Translations under genes and position numbers: made by a program
Notes under the pieces: generated by a model
Databases searched by the model: none
What the model was told of the DNA's origin: nothing
What the model saw: only the letters and a program-made list of their open reading frames with translations
In this document: positions 1,349 to 22,675 of the stretch, in pieces
How the letters are laid out: each line of letters begins with the position of its first letter
How positions within the stretch are numbered: position 1 is the first letter of the stretch
Source of the DNA: a virus
DNA: 28,168 bases
Strand: one strand, 5' to 3'
Virus record (IMG/VR): IMGVR_UViG_3300045995_000256
Coordinates: 1-28,168 of that record

Positions 1349-1633
1349 ATGGCAGTCGAGGTTTTAAAAGTGGCAGGGAATACCCCATGTACAAAACTAG
1401 CAGGCGCAATCGCAGGAATCGTTACAAAAGGTAATGACTGTGAACTATTAAGTATCGGGGCGGGGCCGCTAAATCAGACAATTAAAGCACTTTGTATTGC
1501 TCAAAGAATGCTTGCCCCTAACGGTGTTGTTTTATCATTCCGTCCTGGTTTTGTTTCTCTGGATTTGTCACAGGAAAAAGGTGGGAAATCGGACGTAACA
1601 GCTATACGAATAAAGGTTTTAGTAGATAAATGA
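1349..1633 (+). CDS. spoVS: Stage V sporulation protein S (SpoVS) homologue
   Basis: The 94-residue product has the hallmark pattern of SpoVS: a first strand EVLKVAG, then KLAGAIAGIV, a central IGAGPLNQTIKALCIAQRML (residues 36-55), and the following LAPNGVVLSF. Bacterial SpoVS is a small, roughly 86-residue, Alba-like nucleic-acid-binding protein that affects sporulation and cell division in Bacillus. Its length here is normal apart from a slightly longer loop (SLDLSQEKGGKSD) near the C-terminus. A strong ribosome site (AAAGGAG, 1335-1341) precedes the ATG. The stop overlaps the following HNH gene (ATGA). A phage copy suggests modulation of host development or nucleoid, which is inference. 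Confidence 0.85.
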   Translation: MAVEVLKVAGNTPCTKLAGAIAGIVTKGNDCELLSIGAGPLNQTIKALCIAQRMLAPNGVVLSFRPGFVSLDLSQEKGGKSDVTAIRIKVLVDK

Positions 1634-4945: not shown

Positions 4946-5647
4946 ATGATTGATTTAAAAACTATTGACAAAAAGATTATAATAGGGTGCCCTATTCATG
5001 ACAGGGCATGGATTCTTCCTGAATGGTTTAACTGTATTACAAACCAGGCGGGTTTAAATCTGGAACAAACAGAGCTAGTATTCGCAATTACAGACGGGGA
5101 AGATAATACCCGTGAAATAATTGAGCAGTATAGATGGATTTTTAAGGACATTACTTTACTTAACTGCGATGACCTTCCGGCTTATAAAGACAGAAATCAA
5201 GCAAGGTTCTACCCATTGGTAACATTAAGAAATAGGATTGTAGAATTTTTGCGGGAGAAGCAGCCCGACCTCTATTTTTCCTTTGACAGTGATATAATAC
5301 TTCCCAACGACGCCCTTATTACTTTAATAGAGGACGACAAAGATTTAGTGGCTCCTTATGTGGACCTTGTTCCACCGTCTGGTATTCCAAACTGTATGCA
5401 CAGAGGAGCACAGGAATCGTTTGTAAGACGAAAACCTTACAGCCACTATTATCCATTAGGTTCTCTCTATAAAGTTGACTCTGCGTTTGCAGTATTTTTG
5501 ATGAAGAATAAGGTGTTTAATACTTGTCTTTATAAATGGCATCCCGGTGGTGAAGACCCAGGTTTTAGCCTAGAGCTATTAGATGCGGGGTTTGAATCGT
5601 GGATTGATAGTAGGATAATTGGAACTCATATCTATAATAGGTTTTAA
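4946..5647 (+). CDS. GT-A-fold glycosyltransferase
   Basis: The 233-residue enzyme shows a GT-A layout. An initial strand (KIIIGCPIHDR) is followed by a second nucleotide-domain strand (ELVFAITDGEDN) and the metal-binding FDSDIILP, with the DxD at Asp114-Asp116. A later GGEDPGFSLELLDAGF segment (about 200-215) resembles the acceptor-side acidic motif of GT2/Anp1-like enzymes. It should transfer a sugar from a nucleotide-sugar donor, Mn2+ or Mg2+ dependent, in the cytosol. Acceptor and sugar are unknown. It is one of four glycosyltransferase genes in the window. Confidence 0.8.
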   Translation: MIDLKTIDKKIIIGCPIHDRAWILPEWFNCITNQAGLNLEQTELVFAITDGEDNTREIIEQYRWIFKDITLLNCDDLPAYKDRNQARFYPLVTLRNRIVEFLREKQPDLYFSFDSDIILPNDALITLIEDDKDLVAPYVDLVPPSGIPNCMHRGAQESFVRRKPYSHYYPLGSLYKVDSAFAVFLMKNKVFNTCLYKWHPGGEDPGFSLELLDAGFESWIDSRIIGTHIYNRF

Positions 5648-5649
5648 TA

Positions 5650-6129
5650 ATGATTGAAATTTTACTTACCCAAGGGCAAGTTGCTCTAATTGATGACGAA
5701 GATTACGAACTAGTTTCTCAGTATAAGTGGCATGCTGTGAAAGATACAAATACTTATTATGCATGTGCTTATGTCAAAAGGTCTGGGTATAAAAAAATAA
5801 GAATGCATCGTCTTATAGTGAAAGCTAGTTCTGAGTTGCAAGTTGACCATATAGATGGAAATGGACTAAATAACCAAAAGAAAAATTTAAGGCTTGCTAA
5901 TAATGCTCAGAATCATCATAATTTACGAAGAGTGGTTGAAGGAACATCAAAGTATAAAGGAGTGTATAAACATACTGTAAATAAAAATTGGATAGCAAGA
6001 ATAACTTATGAAGGAAAAATAGTTCATTTAGGAGTTTTTAAAATAGAGACAGATGCGGCTTTAGCTTACAATAAGGCGGCAGTAGAGCACTTTGGAGAGT
6101 TTGCATTTATAAATGACTTAGGAGCTTAG
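5650..6129 (+). CDS. HNH homing endonuclease with C-terminal AP2 domain (copy 2)
   Basis: The 159-residue protein is close in design to the copy at 1630: N-terminal ILLTQGQVALIDDEDYE, a MHRLIV helix with His53, the catalytic QVDHIDGNGLNN with Asp66-His67, NLRLAN, and then an AP2 domain at about 100-156 (KYKGVY, HLGVFKIETDAALAY, EHFGEFAFIN). It starts 2 bases after the glycosyltransferase stop and ends directly before the next gene, which is what a homing gene landing at a gene junction looks like. All core residues appear intact, so it may be active. Confidence 0.9.
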   Translation: MIEILLTQGQVALIDDEDYELVSQYKWHAVKDTNTYYACAYVKRSGYKKIRMHRLIVKASSELQVDHIDGNGLNNQKKNLRLANNAQNHHNLRRVVEGTSKYKGVYKHTVNKNWIARITYEGKIVHLGVFKIETDAALAYNKAAVEHFGEFAFINDLGA

Positions 6130-9571: not shown

Positions 9572-10108
9572 GTGGCCTCGGTTAGTCTAACAAAAGATAA
9601 CGAACGCATATGTTCCATTTGCGGGGGACTATTCCCAGCGACCCTAGAGTATTTTCATCAAGACAGAAGAAATTCTATTGGGTTAAGAGGAGATTGTAAG
9701 ACTTGCCGCACTCTTATAACCAAAGCGGATTACGAAAAAAGTAAAGACAAAATAAAATTGTGGCGTGAAAAAAATAAAGAACACCTTGCATTAAAACGAA
9801 AAGAAAATTATATAAAAAATAGAGATGGCTCTATAAAAAATACAATTTTACTAAAGAAATATGGTATCTATCTTGATGACTGCAAAGAAATGTTTGAAAA
9901 ACAAAATGGTGTTTGTGCTATTTGTGGTCAACCTGAAACTAGAATACAAAGAGGCAAACTTGCAGATTTGTCCGTAGACCATGACCACATCACGGGTGAA
10001 GTGAGGGGATTATTATGTAATAAATGTAATATAGGGATAGCTCACTTTTATGACAATTCAGATTTACTTTTATTAGCTTTTAATTACCTAGAAAAGATTG
10101 TAGTATGA
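9572..10108 (+). CDS. Recombination endonuclease VII-like HNH nuclease
   Basis: The 178-residue protein starts with GTG, with GGAAGGAG (9553-9560) upstream. The N-terminal zinc finger has Cys14-x2-Cys17 and Cys42-x2-Cys45, next to LEYFHQDRRNSIGLRGDCKT. A basic helical linker follows. The C-terminal endonuclease VII domain has KYGIYLDDCKEMFEKQNGVC, zinc ligands Cys115-Cys118 and Cys149-Cys152, and the catalytic LSVDHDHITGEVRGLLCNKC (about 133-152). T4 endonuclease VII resolves branched DNA before packaging. Single-domain relatives like this are common in phages and may be resolvases or homing nucleases. It overlaps the next gene by 4 bases (ATGA). Confidence 0.85.
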   Translation: MASVSLTKDNERICSICGGLFPATLEYFHQDRRNSIGLRGDCKTCRTLITKADYEKSKDKIKLWREKNKEHLALKRKENYIKNRDGSIKNTILLKKYGIYLDDCKEMFEKQNGVCAICGQPETRIQRGKLADLSVDHDHITGEVRGLLCNKCNIGIAHFYDNSDLLLLAFNYLEKIVV

Positions 10109-11066: not shown

Positions 11067-12101
11067 GTGAAAATTAGACTGTCGGGAGCAGCAAATGCCC
11101 ATGATGGGATGGGTGTTATTACTGAAAGCTTAGCTTTAGCATTAGATAAACTAGGAGTGGAAGTTCAGATAAAACCTGCGGCAATATGGTACGACCATAA
11201 CTCCTTAAAACCGCGCACACAAGAACTGGTTAAAAATGAATTAAAAAATATTGACTTTGAGTTATTGATAATGTACCCAGTGTATAGTTTTGATGGAATT
11301 AATAAAAATGCAGCCCTCTTAAGTATGTGGGAAGCAGATAAACTTCCGAGTGTGTGGATTAAAGCTATCAATAGTCTGAATCTTCCTGTCTTAGCCCCTT
11401 CTAAATTCTCAGCAGATGTGTTTAGAAACAGTGGAGTAAAAGTTCCAGTAATTGATTTTCCATTAGGAGTAGATAAGGAGTTTTATGAGTACCGAGAACG
11501 AATATTTCCCACAGATAGACCATTTAGATTTCTCTCAATTGGAAAATTTGAGCCTAGGAAAAATGGAAACACGCTTTTACGGTGCTTTAACAGAACGTTT
11601 CCCGGACGCGATGATATTGAGCTATACATTAAGACACGAGAGAGGTTTATCCCATCCGACTCTGGACGTTCAGCTTCTACTCAAATAAAGTTTTTTTCCA
11701 AAACAGTTTCAGAGAAAGAGTTGAGAGAACTGTACTATAGCTGTAACGCTTTTGTGTATCCTTCTCGTGGAGAGGCCTTTTCATTCCCGCCCAGAAATGC
11801 TATACTCACAGGGATGCCAACACTTGTTACTAATTGGAGTGCTCTTGCTGAAATTCCTGGGGCAAGACTTATAATGACAAAAGGACTCTCCCCCATGTTT
11901 AAGTGCGGATTTTCATACGGGGAAGAAGCAAACCTTTTAATGGCAGACATTGATGAAGAGCATTTATGCAAGCTCTTTGAGAAGATGCTAGACAAAACAT
12001 GGTACGAGGCAGAGTGTGATGATGTTAAGTCTGAGAGAGACACACACCTATCATGGGATGATTGTGCCAAGAATCTAATCAAGTATGTGGAGGGTAACTG
12101 A
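11067..12101 (+). CDS. GT-B-fold glycosyltransferase (GT4-like)
   Basis: The 344-residue enzyme starts with GTG after an AAAGGGG purine stretch. The N-terminal Rossmann domain has MGVITESLALALDKLGVEV, which places the Gly-loop for the acceptor side. The C-terminal donor domain begins at FRFLSIGKFEPRKN (about 155-168) and contains YPSRGEAFSFPPRNAILTG, a GT4 E-x7-E-type nucleotide-sugar motif, followed by MPTLVTNWSALAEI. It should add a sugar from an NDP-sugar to an unknown acceptor. The arrangement matches one complete GT-B enzyme. It overlaps the next gene by one base. Confidence 0.85.
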   Translation: MKIRLSGAANAHDGMGVITESLALALDKLGVEVQIKPAAIWYDHNSLKPRTQELVKNELKNIDFELLIMYPVYSFDGINKNAALLSMWEADKLPSVWIKAINSLNLPVLAPSKFSADVFRNSGVKVPVIDFPLGVDKEFYEYRERIFPTDRPFRFLSIGKFEPRKNGNTLLRCFNRTFPGRDDIELYIKTRERFIPSDSGRSASTQIKFFSKTVSEKELRELYYSCNAFVYPSRGEAFSFPPRNAILTGMPTLVTNWSALAEIPGARLIMTKGLSPMFKCGFSYGEEANLLMADIDEEHLCKLFEKMLDKTWYEAECDDVKSERDTHLSWDDCAKNLIKYVEGN

Positions 12102-14332: not shown

Positions 14333-14947
14333 TTGAGCTTTATAACAGAACACAATGAAAAGTATAAAGACTTTAGACCTCTTCAACAGAGTATTCCTTT
14401 TAATGAAGAAATGTATGATGTTAAAAGTAATGTAACAATTGGAAAAGGGACTATTCTTTATCCCAATGTAACTATCTATGACAATGTATCCATTGGAGAA
14501 AATTGTGTTATAGACTCAGGTGCAGTAATTGGCGCAGAAGGATTCTCTATTCATTGGGAAGACGGCGAATGGGTAGATATGAAGAATGTTGGTGGAGTTA
14601 TTATCGGAGATAATGTGAAGATTGGAGCCAATACCTGTATAGACCGTGGTTCTCTTCTAGGCCACCATACTATCATTGAGTCTGGTGTGAAGATTGATAA
14701 CCTATGCCATATAGCACACAATGTAAAAATCAGACACCGAAGCATTATTTGCCCACAAGTTTGTGTAGGTGGAAGTACAGATATCGGTGAAGGAGTTTGG
14801 GTTGGTATTGGTGCAAAGTTACAAGAGCATATCGTTATAGGGGATAATTCTTTTATTTGTATGGGGGCAATTGTAACAGAAGATGTACTAAACAACACTA
14901 AAGTAATGCCAGGATGGAAAGTTTATTCCAATAGGAAATTGGTATGA
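14333..14947 (+). CDS. LpxD-like left-handed beta-helix N-acyltransferase
   Basis: The 204-residue protein starts with TTG, with AAGGGAG 5 bases upstream. It consists of hexapeptide repeats of the left-handed beta-helix (VTIGKGTILYPNVTIYDNVS, IIIGDNVKIGANTCIDRGSL). The signature SGAVIGAEGFSI, GGVIIGDNVKIGANTCIDRG and DNLCHIAHNVKI matches LpxD, whose catalytic His lies in IAHNV. LpxD acylates UDP-glucosamine lipids, and related enzymes add acyl groups to other amino sugars. The N-terminal LpxD uridine-binding domain is shortened, so a different nucleotide sugar is likely. It overlaps the de-N-acetylase gene by ATGA, so both likely act on one amino sugar. Confidence 0.85.
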   Translation: MSFITEHNEKYKDFRPLQQSIPFNEEMYDVKSNVTIGKGTILYPNVTIYDNVSIGENCVIDSGAVIGAEGFSIHWEDGEWVDMKNVGGVIIGDNVKIGANTCIDRGSLLGHHTIIESGVKIDNLCHIAHNVKIRHRSIICPQVCVGGSTDIGEGVWVGIGAKLQEHIVIGDNSFICMGAIVTEDVLNNTKVMPGWKVYSNRKLV

Positions 14948-15516
14948 GTAGTCTTATTATTGCACCACATGCAGACGATGAAACTTTAGGATGTACTGGC
15001 TTTTTAAATAAAGCGATAGTGCTTATTTGCAGTTTTGATAGCCAACGAATAGGAGAACTTATAACCGCTTCTTCAAATATAGGATATACATTTATTCTTG
15101 GCGAAGGCAAAGAAAATAATTTAGATATGTCTTATATGGTTGGAGAAGTAGAGTCTTGGGTAAATAGTTTTAGACCAGAAATGGTTTTTATTCCACATTC
15201 TGGGTATCATCAAGACCATCAAGTAGCTTATAATGCTTCTTTTGCTGCTCTTAGACCACATGAAAAGAATTTCTTTGTTAAGAAAGTATTGGTGTATGAG
15301 GGCATTCATGATTTTATTTGGTCTGATGAAAAGTTTATCCCTAATTATTTTATTCCTATAGATATTGAGAAGAAGATAGAAGCGTTTAGTTACTACAAAT
15401 CTCAAATGAAATCTCATAGAAGTTTAGATTCAATAAGGCAGCTTGCAGCATTAAGAGGCAAACAGAGTGGATACCCATATGCAGAAGCTTATAGGATTAT
15501 AAGGTGGTGTGAATGA
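14944..15516 (+). CDS. PIG-L/LmbE-type N-deacetylase
   Basis: The 190-residue enzyme begins IIAPHADDETLG, the zinc-binding AHPDDE motif of the PIG-L family (His9, Asp12, with Asp11 as base), and carries the second half HSGYHQDHQ (His89, Asp91, His92). These enzymes remove acetyl groups from N-acetylglucosamine conjugates. Length is a little short (about 190 instead of 220-280) but the core is complete. It is coupled by ATGA to the acyltransferase upstream and the glycosyltransferase downstream, which suggests that a GlcNAc-type sugar is deacetylated and then re-acylated. Confidence 0.85.
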   Translation: MSSLIIAPHADDETLGCTGFLNKAIVLICSFDSQRIGELITASSNIGYTFILGEGKENNLDMSYMVGEVESWVNSFRPEMVFIPHSGYHQDHQVAYNASFAALRPHEKNFFVKKVLVYEGIHDFIWSDEKFIPNYFIPIDIEKKIEAFSYYKSQMKSHRSLDSIRQLAALRGKQSGYPYAEAYRIIRWCE

Positions 15517-16943
15517 TAAGTGCTAATGTAATTTCTGGTCCATTTTATGAAGTTTTTGCTGAGGCGTCATATCAATCTATTCTGCCTTTAGTTGACGAGA
15601 TTCTTGTAATAGACACGGCTCCTGGGAACAATCCTAACGCTGAAGTTAATAAGAAATACGCTACTAGGATTATAGATTTTCCTGGTGGTGGAACGAAAGA
15701 TTTTTCTTTTGCAGCGGCCAGAGAGTTAGCAAGAACTAACTCTAAGTATGAATGGATTCTAAAATGGGACCAAGATGAAGTGATGCATGAAAAAGATTTA
15801 GCTAGAATTGCTGAAGCTGTTTTAACTACTCAAAAAAATGGCATAGTGCTTTCTTTTTATCACTTTATGGTGTATCCTTGGTTATATCAGTTTATTGACA
15901 CAAAGAGGTTTCTCTTTAAACGTGACTTTAGTGAGTGGCGTGATGATGTGCATGAGGGTGTGTATGTTGAAGGAGACAGATTTGAAAAACTTTATAACGT
16001 AAAAGTATTCCATTACGGATATCTCCGTGGACAAGCAGAAGTGTTTAAACGTTGGAAATTATATGCAGATATTGTGGGCAAACCTAATTGTTATGATGGT
16101 CAAGACCCCAATAATATTATTACTGATAGAATTAGTGCGTGTCAAAATTTTACTGGAGTACACCCTAAAGCAGTACAGGGTGTGTTGAATGAATTATTCA
16201 AAGATGCTACCCCTTTTCAAATACGAGCGATACCGAGGTACGGAATGTCCGATAATTATGTAGGGTTATTACTAATAACTTATAATGATGAAGAGAATTT
16301 GAAGAAGATGATTCCATCTTTTGTGGAAAATCTAGACTACCCTGTAGCACTACATGTGATTGATATGGGTTCTACAGATGAGACACAGTACATACTGCCA
16401 GAGTTTTATGGAAGTACAGACGTTACATCTATGAATATTGAATATTGGCACGAATTAAAATCTCTAACATACACTATGAATCATGGATTCACTTCTTTAA
16501 TGTCGAGACAAGAGTGCGAATATATAGGATGGATTCATCCAGATATGCTTTTTACTCCAGACTGGTTAGTTGAATTAGTAGCCACTCTTCAAGTGCATCC
16601 TGAAATTGGTAAGATTTGCTCTTTTAATAACAGGGATGGTGAACCTAAAATAGAAGATATTTTTGAGGGACAAGAGCAGGCTTACATTATTCGTAGAGGT
16701 ACCTTACTCCAAGTAGGACTGTTCGATGAGAAATTTATTGGTATCGGTGGGCTAGAAGACTGGGACTTAAATAATCGTATTCGTAGAGAAGGTTTAAAAG
16801 TAGCTATTACACCAAAGTCTTTAGTGTGGCATGCTGGAATGGGAACCAGAGAAAAAAGGGACACTACCGCTGAACAGATTTACAATAGAGGGATGTATCG
16901 TAAAAAATGGGGAACAGATGAGGAGTTTATTTCTTTTGCCTAA
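15513..16943 (+). CDS. Two-domain GT2 family glycosyltransferase
   Basis: The 476-residue protein carries two GT-A domains. The first (about 1-235) has VDEILVIDTAPGNNP and the metal-site-like WILKWDQDEVMH, with the DxD-like Asp-Gln-Asp. The second (about 248-476) starts YVGLLLITYNDEENLKKMI, then VIDMGSTDET, IGWIHPDMLF where His-Pro-Asp stands in for DxD, and GGLEDWDLNNRIRREG, the GT2 acceptor-site EDxDL motif. A bifunctional or processive enzyme adding two sugars is the simplest reading. It overlaps the deacetylase by ATGA and the next gene by 26 bases. Confidence 0.85.
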   Translation: MISANVISGPFYEVFAEASYQSILPLVDEILVIDTAPGNNPNAEVNKKYATRIIDFPGGGTKDFSFAAARELARTNSKYEWILKWDQDEVMHEKDLARIAEAVLTTQKNGIVLSFYHFMVYPWLYQFIDTKRFLFKRDFSEWRDDVHEGVYVEGDRFEKLYNVKVFHYGYLRGQAEVFKRWKLYADIVGKPNCYDGQDPNNIITDRISACQNFTGVHPKAVQGVLNELFKDATPFQIRAIPRYGMSDNYVGLLLITYNDEENLKKMIPSFVENLDYPVALHVIDMGSTDETQYILPEFYGSTDVTSMNIEYWHELKSLTYTMNHGFTSLMSRQECEYIGWIHPDMLFTPDWLVELVATLQVHPEIGKICSFNNRDGEPKIEDIFEGQEQAYIIRRGTLLQVGLFDEKFIGIGGLEDWDLNNRIRREGLKVAITPKSLVWHAGMGTREKRDTTAEQIYNRGMYRKKWGTDEEFISFA

Positions 16944-17493
16944 TATACACCTCATAGGAGACAGTCATTGCCTTTGCTTTGATGGGGCAAAAGATGTGGT
17001 TCCTCATTGGTGTGGTGCAGCTACAGCCTACAATTTGTACAAAAAATATGACTTAACTAAGACCTTCTTTGAGGCTATTGAAGACGACTACTGGTTTTGT
17101 TTTGGAGAAATAGATTGTAGACTACATATTTATAGACAAGCCAAACTTCTAAATACTACTGAGCTAGATATTCTAGGGCGCACCGTTGATACTTATATGG
17201 AAGCAGTAAGTGTGTTTGATGGTTGGAATATTGGTGTCATGGCAGTTCCACCCCAAGGGTACGAAGATAATATTTATGGGTATGACTACTACGCTTCACG
17301 AGCACATAGACAACAAATAACTGATGTGTTTAACTTCTGGCTTGAGAACGTGTGCATTGACTATGGGATACCATTTATAGATATTTGGAAACAGGACGAG
17401 ATATGGGCCGAAGAAAACTTCAAAGATGATAAGTGTCATATAAAAAATGAAATAGCAATAAAGTATCTTAAACAATACTTGGAGGTAATATGA
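16918..17493 (+). CDS. SGNH/GDSL-hydrolase-like protein
   Basis: The start is taken as ATG 16918 (191 residues), inside the end of the previous gene; the frame extends to 16831 but that is shadowed. Block I is LIGDSHCLCF (Gly14-Asp15-Ser16), with Ser16 as nucleophile. FGEIDCR (62-68) resembles block III. Block V is DDKCHI with Asp171 and His174 (DxxH). The family removes or transfers acyl (for example acetyl) groups on glycans. Placement after the glycosyltransferases fits trimming or editing of an acylated sugar. The substrate is unknown. Confidence 0.65.
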   Translation: MRSLFLLPNIHLIGDSHCLCFDGAKDVVPHWCGAATAYNLYKKYDLTKTFFEAIEDDYWFCFGEIDCRLHIYRQAKLLNTTELDILGRTVDTYMEAVSVFDGWNIGVMAVPPQGYEDNIYGYDYYASRAHRQQITDVFNFWLENVCIDYGIPFIDIWKQDEIWAEENFKDDKCHIKNEIAIKYLKQYLEVI

Positions 17494-17699
17494 GTACAAC
17501 ATCAATAACTAGATGTGATAGCTGTCACAAAGTAATAGATTATGATGGAACACATAGGATTGAGATAAACAGATTTAATATTGATGGTAAGAAGCCTTAC
17601 TACTATTGGGATATTTGTGATGAATGCATAGTTAACATCCTCGCAGTTTTAGGTTTAACTTGGAAAAAACCTGCACCTAGTAAGAGGAAGAAAAAATGA
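17490..17699 (+). CDS. Small zinc-finger-like protein
   Basis: A 69-residue product is coupled to the upstream stop by ATGA, and TTGGAGG (17479-17485) provides the ribosome site. Cys9-x2-Cys12 and Cys43-x2-Cys46 (RCDSC, ICDEC) frame a loop, and the C-terminus is very basic (KPAPSKRKKK). It probably binds nucleic acid or protein. No family is recognised. Confidence 0.65.
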   Translation: MSTTSITRCDSCHKVIDYDGTHRIEINRFNIDGKKPYYYWDICDECIVNILAVLGLTWKKPAPSKRKKK

Positions 17700-17920
17700 A
17701 TATAGCATGGATTAAATATGATGACAAAGGAGAAAAGTATGGTAAAGCTGTTTATATTGAAGATGAGTTAATAGCTAAAAGTAATCAAGAACAATTAATA
17801 GACCTCATTCTATCTGCTTGTAATTTATTAGCTTGTGATTATGAGTTTAGCTTTAATAAGGAAGTAACAAAACTTAAGCCTTTGCATTTTAAAATTATTG
17901 AAGACAAGGAATGTGGATGA
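17696..17920 (+). CDS. Small unknown phage protein
   Basis: A 74-residue product is coupled to the upstream stop by ATGA. It shows strands at the start (AWIKYDDKGEKYGKAVYI), a central helix (QEQLIDLILSACNLLACDYE) and a final strand (LKPLHFKIIED). It looks like a small alpha/beta domain. No motif is recognised. It ends at the start of the next glycosyltransferase (ATGA). Confidence 0.6.
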   Translation: MNIAWIKYDDKGEKYGKAVYIEDELIAKSNQEQLIDLILSACNLLACDYEFSFNKEVTKLKPLHFKIIEDKECG

Positions 17921-18801
17921 ACATCGCCATACTCACAACTTATAATTCAGCCTGCGGGATAGCAGAATACAGCCGTAATTTAGTTGATGAGTTTTTACGA
18001 ATGGGCCACAATGTTATTATGTTTACTAATAAGCCTAGAACTAGTTTGGAGGCCGAGCCAAGACTAACGGTAGAAAAGATTTTCGGCGTGTATTGGTGGG
18101 GAGAAGACCCAAAAATTGATATCAGAAAATTTGCGGAGGCGTGGTACTACTTTGAAAAAGAACATGGTAAAATTGATGTTTTAAATATTCAGTATCAGTC
18201 AAGTCTTTATGAACCAGAAGGGTTTAATTGGATTCTTCAGAATGTGAAATGCCCAACAGTAATTACTCAACACGATTCAACTATGAGTCCTAAGCATATG
18301 TTCCCTAAGGGTACTAAAAAGATTGTGCATAATGTAGAGATTCCATCTTCCCACTTCATTCCTTTTCCCACAATAGAAAAGCCTACTTCAGTCTTTAGTT
18401 TTGGCATGGGCAGAAACGATTACAGTTTTATTAGTGATGCTTGTGAAGAAATTGGGGTAGAGTTTGACTTCCATGATGCCCGCGAACAAGGGTGGTTGAC
18501 CGAAGACGACCTATTCCATAAGATGCGTAAAGCAGATGCTATTGTTTTGTGGTATAATCATGTTGACTTAAAGGGGCAGTCAGCAGCTTTAAGGACGGCC
18601 ATATCTAGTCACCGCCCAGTTATTGTTAACAATGCTAACTGGTTTCTGGACGCGCCAGGGTTTGTTAAAATGGCGAATAACAAAAATGAATTACAAATTG
18701 CTCTTGCAGAAACTCTTCATCTAGAGTATATTAGAGACAAGTCTTTTACTAAATGTGCTGAAAAGTATCTAAAAGTATTTAGAGGAGAGTATAATGAGTG
18801 A
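17917..18801 (+). CDS. GT-B-fold glycosyltransferase (GT4-like)
   Basis: The 294-residue enzyme starts at ATG 17917, chosen over the ATG at 17911 because AAGGA (17906-17910) then sits 6 bases upstream and the overlap is ATGA. N-terminal domain: NIAILTTYNSACGIAEYSRN, with the GIAEY Gly-loop of GT4 mannosyltransferase-like proteins, then ITQHDSTMSP. The C-terminal half has VFSFGMGRNDYSFI and a donor-site-like LKGQSAALRTAISSHRPVIV. It is shorter than typical GT4 enzymes (about 360), with a slim donor domain. It closes the sugar block. Confidence 0.75.
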   Translation: MNIAILTTYNSACGIAEYSRNLVDEFLRMGHNVIMFTNKPRTSLEAEPRLTVEKIFGVYWWGEDPKIDIRKFAEAWYYFEKEHGKIDVLNIQYQSSLYEPEGFNWILQNVKCPTVITQHDSTMSPKHMFPKGTKKIVHNVEIPSSHFIPFPTIEKPTSVFSFGMGRNDYSFISDACEEIGVEFDFHDAREQGWLTEDDLFHKMRKADAIVLWYNHVDLKGQSAALRTAISSHRPVIVNNANWFLDAPGFVKMANNKNELQIALAETLHLEYIRDKSFTKCAEKYLKVFRGEYNE

Positions 18802-19819: not shown

Positions 19820-22235
19820 CATTGTAAAATTTTCAGAGGTAATTTCTGAGAGTAACTACTACCCATATCAACTTCCCTTTGCTTCCCGTGTAGCAAAGAG
19901 CTTAGTTGAAAATGAAGGTGCTACGATTACGGCCCTCTTTTCTAGGCAATGCTTAGTAAGGGGGTCTTTAATTTTGTCTGACAGTGGGGAAGTAACCCCC
20001 ATTGAAAAGCACCCTGACGCGTGGAAAACTAATGATTCTGCTGAAGTAGTAGAGCTAAGAGTGCAGGGTGGAGCGGTGATTAGATGCACCAAGGACCATC
20101 CGATTCGCACAAAAAATGGGTGGGAACCTGCGGCTAGTTTAAAACCTGGAGATTTAGTTGAAGTCTTAGACAATTGGGACTGCTTCAACTCTGGTGGTTA
20201 CAACAATGAACTGGCTGAGTTACTTGGTCATGTTGTCACCAATTTAAAAAACTCCCACGTTATTACTTTCCAAAAAGATACCCAACGAATTAAAGCTATT
20301 CTTGATAAGTATTTTCAACCGACTTATGTAAAATCACACAAGCTAGAGGTATTTATAGAGGGTAAGTTTATGGAGTTTTTAAAACGTACTGCTAGACTTA
20401 CTTCTTTTGGATTCCCCCTTGTGGTTAATACCTTTACAAAAGACCAGACTATTGCTTTCTTTAGAGCAGTTTTTTTAAACATTGGTCATGCTATTAGAAA
20501 CGTAGGAACTTCTGTAATCAAATTCACATTCCACGATAAAAAATTCTTAGAGTACTGTAGAGTATTTCTAAATAAACTAGGTTTGATTGGTAACATCGAG
20601 GTTGTACAAAAGAAGTACAGCCTAAACTTATACTGTAAAACCAACTACTTTAGGTTTAAAGAGCTGTTCCCCGACACAGAGATGCCTTTTATTACTTTTA
20701 GAAGTAGGCCAATAGAGTACACAGAGCAAGATACAGGGGCAGTTACTAAGTTTTCAAAGGTTGTATACGTCAAAGATGCGGGGGTATCTGAAGTTTGGGA
20801 CGTTACTTATAAAGACACTGGATGGTTTTTTGCTAACGGAATAAAGGTTGCTAACAGTGGTAAGACACAGAGCGTGTCTATGGTGGTAGCAGCTTGTATG
20901 ATTCTTCTTCCTAAATTAGCAGAACAACTCCCCGAGCTTGCACCTTTATTTGGTAAAGGTTTTTGGTGTGGTATTTTTGCACCTGTCTTAGAGCAGGCAT
21001 CCACATTATTTGACAGGGTCTATGACATTTTAACTACAGATACTTGCAGGGAAGTTCTAACTGGAGAACTTCATATGCCTATTCCATTTAAAGGAGGTTC
21101 CAGAGGAAATGTAATCTCTTTAACAAATGGTTCGGTATGTCGAATGCACTCCGCTAATCTTAGGTCTAGAGTTGAATCTAAGACATACCATCTTATAATT
21201 TTTGATGAGGCACAGGACGTTCCTGAAAAAAAGGCTAACCTGTCAATTCAACCAATGGGCGCTGCTACAAATGCTACAACAGTAGTTACAGGTACTCCTG
21301 GCTATGTTGCGGGATTGTTCTACAACATGATTGAGATGAATAAACGAGATGACATTAGAAGACCCTCTTCTGAACAATGTCATTTTGAAGCTGATTATAC
21401 TGTTGCCCAAAAATCTAATGCGTACTATAAGAAATCTATCGAGCATGAAAAGAAAAAACTAGGAGAAGACTCCGAGGAATTCAGAGCTGCTTATATGCTT
21501 ATCTGGCCTATAAGTAGAGGAATGATGTTCATTAAAGATGTTTTAGTTTTAAAGTGCTACCAAAAAGAGTTAAAATTAGAGGACTCGTACAAAGAATCTC
21601 TTTGCGTGGCTGGTGTAGATTTTGGTAAGGCTCAATTCTCAACAGTGGTTACTGTTTTAAAACCAATATGGGAACAGGCCGATGATGAAGGAAACATGCC
21701 AAAGATTCTTCTTGATTGGTTAGAGCTAGAGGGTGATGAGTGGGAATCTCAGTATCCTCAAATTGTAGATTTTCTTAATAACTACAGGGTTGATACGCTT
21801 GTTTGTGATGCAACAGGACTAGGTGACCCAGTAACAGAAAGACTATCCGTATTACTTCCTGAAGTAACCGTTGCTCCTTTTGTGTTCACTGCCCCAAACA
21901 TAGATGCCGGGTATAAGTACTTAGTAAAAGAAGTTATGGGTGGAAGACTTTTAATACCCCATCACAGTTCAGTGACTAACAAGCAAAGTTTTAAAAAGTT
22001 TGAATTACAAATGACCTCATTAACAAAGCATTATAGTGGGCGTTTTCTAATGCCGCGTTCTATTAACGTTGACAAAATTCCAGAAGACTTTTGTGACTCA
22101 TTAATGATGGCTAACTACGGAACATACTATGACTGTATGCCAGAAGTTGAGGTCAGTAATAACTCATTCTTTGAAAGAGACAGAGTAAATAGTGATATAT
22201 TCGGGTACAAGTATTCCAGAAATAGGAGAGGTTAA
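19779..22235 (+). CDS. terL: Terminase large subunit, interrupted by an in-frame intein
   Basis: This is the packaging ATPase and nuclease. The frame is open from 19764, but no ATG, GTG or TTG precedes the intein; I place the start at ATA 19779 (IELTPQ), as TerL relatives in my memory begin MxLTP. ATT 19821 or a +1 shift from the upstream gene are alternatives. N-extein, about 57 residues, ends ITALFSRQ; the C-extein, 459 residues, begins SGKTQS, so splicing rebuilds Walker A SRQSGKTQS. Walker B is LIIFDEAQDV, then TGTPGY. The nuclease acids are VDFGKAQF, LVCDATGLGD and DFCDSLMMA. The mature protein would be about 516 residues. It overlaps the HNH gene by one base. Confidence 0.85.
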   Translation: MELTPQTTKKVVDSIVKFSEVISESNYYPYQLPFASRVAKSLVENEGATITALFSRQCLVRGSLILSDSGEVTPIEKHPDAWKTNDSAEVVELRVQGGAVIRCTKDHPIRTKNGWEPAASLKPGDLVEVLDNWDCFNSGGYNNELAELLGHVVTNLKNSHVITFQKDTQRIKAILDKYFQPTYVKSHKLEVFIEGKFMEFLKRTARLTSFGFPLVVNTFTKDQTIAFFRAVFLNIGHAIRNVGTSVIKFTFHDKKFLEYCRVFLNKLGLIGNIEVVQKKYSLNLYCKTNYFRFKELFPDTEMPFITFRSRPIEYTEQDTGAVTKFSKVVYVKDAGVSEVWDVTYKDTGWFFANGIKVANSGKTQSVSMVVAACMILLPKLAEQLPELAPLFGKGFWCGIFAPVLEQASTLFDRVYDILTTDTCREVLTGELHMPIPFKGGSRGNVISLTNGSVCRMHSANLRSRVESKTYHLIIFDEAQDVPEKKANLSIQPMGAATNATTVVTGTPGYVAGLFYNMIEMNKRDDIRRPSSEQCHFEADYTVAQKSNAYYKKSIEHEKKKLGEDSEEFRAAYMLIWPISRGMMFIKDVLVLKCYQKELKLEDSYKESLCVAGVDFGKAQFSTVVTVLKPIWEQADDEGNMPKILLDWLELEGDEWESQYPQIVDFLNNYRVDTLVCDATGLGDPVTERLSVLLPEVTVAPFVFTAPNIDAGYKYLVKEVMGGRLLIPHHSSVTNKQSFKKFELQMTSLTKHYSGRFLMPRSINVDKIPEDFCDSLMMANYGTYYDCMPEVEVSNNSFFERDRVNSDIFGYKYSRNRRG
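19950..20855 (+). mobile_element. Intein (302 residues) inside the terminase P-loop
   Basis: The insert runs from Cys (TGC 19950) to Asn (AAC 20853-20855) and is followed by Ser. Block A is CLVRGSLILSDSGEVTPIE. Block B is VIRCTKDHPIRTKNGWEP, with the TxxH pair. Block F is VWDVTYKDTGWFFANG. Block G is IKVAN then Ser, so the penultimate residue is Ala, not the usual His. The middle 180 residues hold two degenerate LAGLIDADG-like helices (ELAELLGHVVTNLKNSHV and IAFFRAVFLNIGHAIR) in which the catalytic acids are gone. Splicing seems preserved while homing activity has probably decayed. Confidence 0.85.
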
Positions 22236-22675
22236 TGGAACTAAAACTCACACAAAGTAAAGTGGTTCTCATAGATGATGAAGACTTTGACTTGATTAGT
22301 CGATATACTTGGTGTGCTCATAAAAATGGGTATGTTTATTACGCTGAAACACAAATTAAAGTAGGTAATAAAAAGTACACCTTAAAGATGCACCGTCTTA
22401 TTATGAGTGCCAAAAAAGGGCAAGAAGTAGACCACAAAAATGGCAACGGCCTAGATAACAGGAGAGAAAATTTACGTTTTTGTACGAGGTCTGAAAATCT
22501 TTCAAACAGAAGAGGTTGGGGGTCATCAAAGTATAAAGGTGTTTGTTGGGAAAAAGGTGTTAAAAAATGGGTGGCATATTATTATAACAGTGAGGGACTA
22601 AAGACGTTTGTAGGACGTTTTGATTCTGAAGAAGTAGCGCATGAAAAACTAAAAGAGATTAGGGGAGGTGATTAA
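22235..22675 (+). CDS. HNH homing endonuclease with shortened AP2 domain (copy 3)
   Basis: The 146-residue protein follows the same plan as copies 1 and 2: LTQSKVVLIDDEDFDL, KMHRLIM with His53, the core QEVDHKNGNGLDN with Asp66-His67, NLRFCT, then AP2-like SKYKGVCWEKGVKKWVAYYY at about 98-117. The AP2 end is trimmed: after GRFDSEEVAHEKLKEIR the usual FGEFAxxN strand is missing. It sits between terminase and portal, overlapping the terminase stop by one base. The catalytic part looks complete. Confidence 0.88.
   Translation: MELKLTQSKVVLIDDEDFDLISRYTWCAHKNGYVYYAETQIKVGNKKYTLKMHRLIMSAKKGQEVDHKNGNGLDNRRENLRFCTRSENLSNRRGWGSSKYKGVCWEKGVKKWVAYYYNSEGLKTFVGRFDSEEVAHEKLKEIRGGD

Follow-up and report, generated by a model that had tools for sequence, protein, structure and literature searches.

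The viral record IMGVR_UViG_3300045995_000256 (IMG/VR) is complete at 28,168 bases and is a fragment of a tailed phage genome. It was analysed over its whole length, here called the window, with a focus on the unit of seven open reading frames (ORFs) at positions 14333-18801. On balance, this unit probably belongs to a phage glycan-assembly locus in which an LpxD-like acyltransferase (14333) and a PIG-L deacetylase (14944) decorate a glycan that is most likely carried on virion proteins. Both enzymes are identifiable by family and retain their catalytic residues, their genes recur together across diverged phage lineages, and such decoration genes have evolved separately from a core of glycosyltransferase (GT) genes. 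A longer locus contains this unit, together with the GT4 gene at 11067 and probably also the GT-A-like gene at 4946, and adjoins the terminase, portal, and capsid genes.

The recurrence of the acyltransferase and the deacetylase was assessed in eleven acyltransferase lineages, mostly 29-49% identical, which comprise the window, locus L059, and viral contigs fetched with the acyltransferase alone. For instance, L048 and L050 from unrelated phages were fetched in this way and both were then found to carry PIG-L, and a profile of four acyltransferases retrieved eight more viral loci (of which L117 duplicates L116). Both genes were scanned for with hidden Markov models built for this analysis, and a PIG-L gene lies within 8 kb of the acyltransferase gene in 9 of the 11 lineages, a small count; the six newly tested PIG-L proteins all score above the PF02585 cut-off. 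The genes are directly adjacent in six lineages, with the acyltransferase first in the window, L059, and L120 and PIG-L first in L050, L114, and L116. Because adjacency occurs in both gene orders, the pairing probably arose repeatedly. The lineages without PIG-L (L115 and L118) instead have a NodB-like protein of the RHDVD type immediately upstream of the acyltransferase, and RHD(V/I)D-type proteins are also found directly upstream in L113 and in the Clostridia loci L121, L126, and L128. In contrast, neither PIG-L nor a NodB-like deacetylase was found in eight related cassettes that lack the acyltransferase (0/8), and thus the two genes co-occur more often than expected. Fisher's test gives p = 6e-4 for PIG-L and 1e-5 for either deacetylase type; both values are rough because the lineages are not fully independent, the control cassettes are related by descent, and the NodB-like class was first recognised in these very data. 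The original prediction, made from the window's sequence, was that the two enzymes jointly swap an N-acyl group, and this pairing lends it strong comparative support. The converse pairing fails: when loci were retrieved with PIG-L, an acyltransferase match, and a weak one, was seen in L040 only. Phage hallmark genes were confirmed in L048, L050, L114, L116, L118, and L120; in a check of nine records, the portal model phrog_12 matched five and phrog_2, a presumed TerL model, matched none.

The profile scores and alignments indicate that the 14333 product is an LpxD-like enzyme rather than LpxD itself. It has the left-handed beta-helix and HIAHNV catalytic histidine expected of LpxD, and yet it scores 180 bits against the LpxD subfamily profile (cut-off 207) and 176 bits against the TIGR01853 equivalog (cut-off 242.5). 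Only the beta-helix of LpxD is aligned, beginning at LpxD residue ~144: there is no match to PF04613, the N-terminal uridine-binding domain, and the C-terminal helices that bind acyl carrier protein (ACP) are absent. His129 corresponds to the catalytic base His239 of Escherichia coli LpxD, and His166 to His276 (roles of the LpxD residues: PMC6286764). His129 is invariant across 11 phage homologs, a result biased by the inclusion of HIAHNV in the search pattern, and the closest homolog is that of L059 (58% identity). The deacetylase has the PF02585 domain with the (P/A)HxDD...DH metal and base residues of the PIG-L family, is 42% identical to the PIG-L protein of L059, and is predicted to act as a de-N-acetylase on an N-acetylglucosamine (GlcNAc) conjugate. 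Its residues H9, D11, D12, and H92 are invariant in 22 phage homologs, and the conserved catalytic residues of both enzymes support activity.

Relatives of the acyltransferase were also sought outside the phage loci. They occur in 8 of 291 Clostridia genomes, some beside glycan genes, and so the earlier view that an LpxD-like enzyme is unusual beside Gram-positive features is not supported. In three of these eight loci a NodB-like protein is immediately upstream, and in a fourth it is 1.2 kb away. A scan of a genome collection with the acyltransferase yielded only distant bacterial LpxD and hexapeptide proteins and no lead to the host. Named phages were rejected as carriers: 13 INPHARED matches, which include Helicobacter and Salmonella records, were unusable, and the records inspected among them (Pseudomonas 'phage Y1', Acinetobacter MD-2021a, and faecal scaffolds) have a bacterial chromosomal context, most with lpxD-type genes. 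Two of them, L106 (OQ572403, Pseudomonas 'phage Y1') and L111 (Acinetobacter 'phage' MD-2021a), have the chromosomal lpxD neighbourhood of rseP, bamA, fabZ, and lpxA and are apparently bacterial contigs labelled as phage.

Comparison of the wider locus shows two separately evolving parts, a conserved GT core and a variable middle of decoration genes, which encode methyltransferases, nucleotidyltransferases, or deoxysugar enzymes or else the acyltransferase and PIG-L. L051, found via the tandem GT2, is arranged as GT4, GT2, GT2, SGNH, FkbM methyltransferase, methyltransferase, nucleotidyltransferase-like, GT-B, TerL, and portal. L055, L061, and L059 share this frame, with ribonucleotide reductase upstream where the contig extends and TerL, portal, and capsid genes downstream, but the middle differs: L055 and L061 have FkbM methyltransferases and a nucleotidyl- or cytidylyltransferase, and L059 has an epimerase, RmlC-like and RmlD-like proteins, the acyltransferase, PIG-L, and an extra GT2. 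The placement of such genes at the same site in relatives argues for the glycan nature of the locus. Phages of the window's lineage share the core, and unrelated phages have more distant versions of it; the high-GC phages L064-L067 retain GT2c, GT4, tandem GT2, and GT-B, and L068 has a GT-B relative and a tandem-GT2-like ORF. A tblastn search (E 1e-3) of 50,697 named phage records, run also with the L066 homolog as query, found no homolog of the GT-B or tandem GT2. A fixed five-gene order was rejected, since the core is found in L055, L061, and L051 with the pair missing, and the pair is found beside other genes and in the absence of this core. In L059, the pair is adjacent and overlapping and occupies another place within the locus than in the window. 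Another phage sugar cassette was observed in the marine phage L008, where the PIG-L gene has as neighbours genes for a DegT-like aminotransferase, a radical SAM protein, and a protein similar to the RmlD-like one of L059.

These gene contents are consistent with the following scheme, in which we infer the reaction order, substrate, acyl group, and virion attachment. The core GTs (4946, 11067, 15513, and 17911) would build the glycan, which the variable middle, here the acyltransferase and PIG-L, would decorate. Once a GT has added an N-acetylated hexosamine, the PIG-L zinc centre would strip the acetyl group to leave a free 2-amine, and the acyltransferase, via its catalytic histidine, would N-acylate this amine with a different acyl group from coenzyme A or ACP. 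The SGNH enzyme may edit or transfer O-acyl groups, and the finished glycan would most likely be carried on virion proteins. No aminotransferase was recognised among the genes of the window or of the L059 cassette, which leaves PIG-L as the one recognisable source of an amine. The missing uridine-binding domain hints weakly at action on an assembled glycan and not on a uridine diphosphate sugar, an argument that is weak because LpxA also lacks that domain.

Deacetylation followed by N-acylation has precedents in lipid A (LpxC/LpxD), teicoplanin (Tei2/Tei11), and Nod factor (NodB/NodA) synthesis. PIG-L and LpxC belong to different protein families, and the Tei and Nod acyltransferases likewise differ in family from the phage enzyme and act toward products that are secreted small molecules; no phage link is known for Tei2/Tei11 or NodB/NodA. 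In the lipid A pathway, a zinc deacetylase is followed by a hexapeptide N-acyltransferase (PMC6286764), of which the phage enzyme is a recognisable relative with the catalytic histidine kept, although it lacks the uridine- and ACP-binding parts and is found in a GT locus and not with lpxA/fabZ. In the other two, a GlcNAc residue on an assembled glycoconjugate is de-N-acetylated and then N-acylated (Tei2/Tei11, PMC8987122; NodC/NodB/NodA, PMC5080398). Phage-encoded GTs are reported to decorate capsid and tail-tube proteins of mycobacteriophages Che8, Corndog, and Myrna, but no deacetylase/acyltransferase couple was found in the two sources that describe this (PMC12363180, PMC12619734). Conserved GT borders around a variable sugar-decorating middle are also a feature of bacterial O-antigen and capsule loci, from which the phage locus differs by its position beside structural genes and by having no recognised polymerase or flippase gene. 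If the proposed scheme is correct, then phages possess a route for N-acyl swapping that has so far been described for lipid A, Nod factors, and glycopeptide antibiotics. This route would diversify a glycan that most likely sits on the virion, and so widen phage-particle chemistry, with a bearing on adsorption, immunity, and particle stability, and it would provide a new pair of compact enzymes for sugar acylation. Because the two genes recur together, two purified proteins would be enough for a direct test of the idea. A broader version, in which many unrelated phages independently assembled the couple and display on their virions amino sugars with acyl groups other than acetyl, possibly fatty ones, so that the particles bear acyl- or lipid-tagged glycans that change identity as cassettes are exchanged, is more speculative and rather doubtful.

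Several observations weigh against the favoured scheme. The L048 and L050 acyltransferases have C-terminal GNPA(K)-type motifs of the sort usual in acetyltransferases, and so the donor may be short-chain. PIG-L is 3-5 kb from the acyltransferase in L048 and L113, and a DegT-like aminotransferase near the acyltransferase in L113 means that the latter could serve another amine there. The NodB-like identity is weak (best profile-to-PDB match to polysaccharide deacetylases E 7e-4; no Pfam or NCBIfam match), L113, L115, and L119 gave no confirmed phage hallmark genes, and virion attachment is suggested by gene position only. The acetyltransferase-like ends and the L113 aminotransferase, together with a DegT aminotransferase adjoining the Clostridia relative L096, would also fit two independent enzymes, the acyltransferase acetylating an amino sugar that a host aminotransferase supplies and PIG-L acting elsewhere, as neighbours drawn from a shared pool of glycan genes. 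This is unlikely given their co-occurrence, their adjacency in both orders, the absence of PIG-L from the control cassettes, and the lack of a recognised aminotransferase in the window or L059 cassette.

As to where the glycan is carried, the genes for TerL, portal, and capsid follow shortly after the window locus. In L120 the pair directly precedes the portal and head protease genes, in L048 it is close to the tail sheath/tube genes, and in L116 it is close to a tail fibre gene. The core GTs come after the capsid gene of L068 and before a tail gene of L064. The virion is thus the most likely carrier as judged from gene neighbourhoods. Of the targets originally proposed for the acylated sugar, virion proteins gain indirect support from this recurrence among head or tail genes of several unrelated phages, and DNA has little. 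Alternatively, the target could be a cell-wall glycan or surface polymer of the infected host, modified to exclude superinfection or to mask receptors. The upstream amidase (12769) has a signal-like N-terminus, and prophage-type serotype conversion by GTs is mentioned as established in PMC12619734. However, the GT proteins match soluble GT2/GT4 families and not membrane seroconversion enzymes (as judged by family matches rather than topology prediction), no lysogeny gene was recognised among the window ORFs searched, and the pair or core lies in head/tail gene blocks of unrelated phages, all of which make a host target improbable. A glycan on phage DNA, for which PIG-L would uncover an amine much as in the DNA-modification gene sets of other phages, is very unlikely and was set aside: GTs that glycosylate phage DNA are known, the phage IME392 PIG-L is near a thymidylate synthase annotation, and PIG-L genes in L002-L005 and L012 are beside ParB-like and WbqC-like ORFs, but a thymidylate-synthase-type hydroxymethylase is present in 0 of 11 GT-core records (possibly incomplete) and 1 of 9 other acyltransferase records (several of them fragments). 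The L002-L005 and L012 genes are perhaps a different system, possibly a DNA-modification set.

The features of the window are collected in the table below.

Features of the window (coordinates in bases)
Feature	Position	Strand	Basis or location
SpoVS (stage V sporulation protein S) homolog	1349-1633		70 bits to PF04232
GT-A-like protein	4946..5647	+	weak PHROG glycosyltransferase match
Ribonucleotide reductase	6847		window
GT4 glycosyltransferase, upstream border of variable region	11067..12101	+	syntenic homologs in L051, L055, L059, L061
Amidase, signal-like N-terminus	12769		upstream of 14333-18801
LpxD-like left-handed beta-helix (hexapeptide) N-acyltransferase, 204 aa	14333..14947	+	Hexapep 94 bits
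PIG-L/LmbE-type zinc de-N-acetylase (predicted), 190 aa	14944..15516	+	PF02585 32.7 bits, cut-off 28.2
Tandem GT2 glycosyltransferase, two fused GT-A domains	15513..16943	+	two GT2 stretches, Pfam 57.3 bits
SGNH/GDSL-fold hydrolase or O-acyltransferase (predicted)	16918..17493	+	motifs and structure model
Small CxxC protein	17490..17699	+	homolog directly ahead of GT-B gene in L055 (47%)
Small protein, no recognised relatives	17696..17920	+	
GT-B fold (GT4-type) glycosyltransferase, downstream border of variable region	17911..18801	+	GT4 37.5 bits; model matches GT-B enzymes
TerL intein	19950-20855		inside TerL gene
SPP1-like portal	22668		window
Capsid	25248		window

Each of the seven ORFs overlaps its neighbour, and the coordinates were checked as exact. 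The acyltransferase gene has a TTG start preceded by AGGGAG, and the PIG-L and GT2 genes both begin (ATG) within ATGA overlaps. The SGNH gene overlaps the GT2 gene by 26 bp if it starts at 16918 and by 113 bp if at 16831. The originally described joining of the first four genes by overlaps (ATGA or similar) is correct, and the last gene does follow two small genes, which also overlap their neighbours and leave the seven-gene unit unbroken. Motifs claimed for these genes were found (HIAHNV, PHADDE/HQDH, DQDE/EDWDL, and GDSH/DKCH), and the five named enzymes keep their identities in Pfam or subfamily profile matches and structure models. Homologs retain catalytic residues and synteny, which argues for more than chance.

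The 'dual GT2' does contain two GT2 domains, but it is a fusion, since the two domains are separate genes in L051. Other tandem homologs are in L055, L061, and L064-L067, and L059 has the N-terminal half only. The SGNH product has no Pfam match; its structure model (mean predicted local distance difference test score 82.6) matches GDSL and sialic-acid esterases (E 3e-6, template modelling score ~0.6). It has the GDSx block I, DxxH block V, and GDSL fold of the SGNH family, and GDSH and DxxH are invariant in four homologs. Homologs of the 17911 GT-B enzyme are in nine records (29-67% identity), and the 11067 GT4 has distant homologs in L064-L067. The 4946 product is a probable further member of the GT core; it has homologs in L055 (54%) and L064-L067, and L089 also has an ORF of this type.

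The SpoVS homolog and low GC content suggest a Bacillota-like host; the nearest named TerL and portal proteins are mostly from Streptomyces and Bacteroides phages, at only 29-34% identity. The TerL intein sits just ahead of the Walker A motif (FSRQ^SGKT), and its region is also aligned in L055, L058, L059, and L061, whereas the L051 site is uninterrupted (FSRQSGKS). Three related HNH/AP2-like homing-endonuclease-type ORFs are present at 1630-2121, 5650-6129, and 22235-22675, and another HNH ORF is at 9572-10108. These ORFs look mobile, since copies occupy different places in relatives (L051 and L055).

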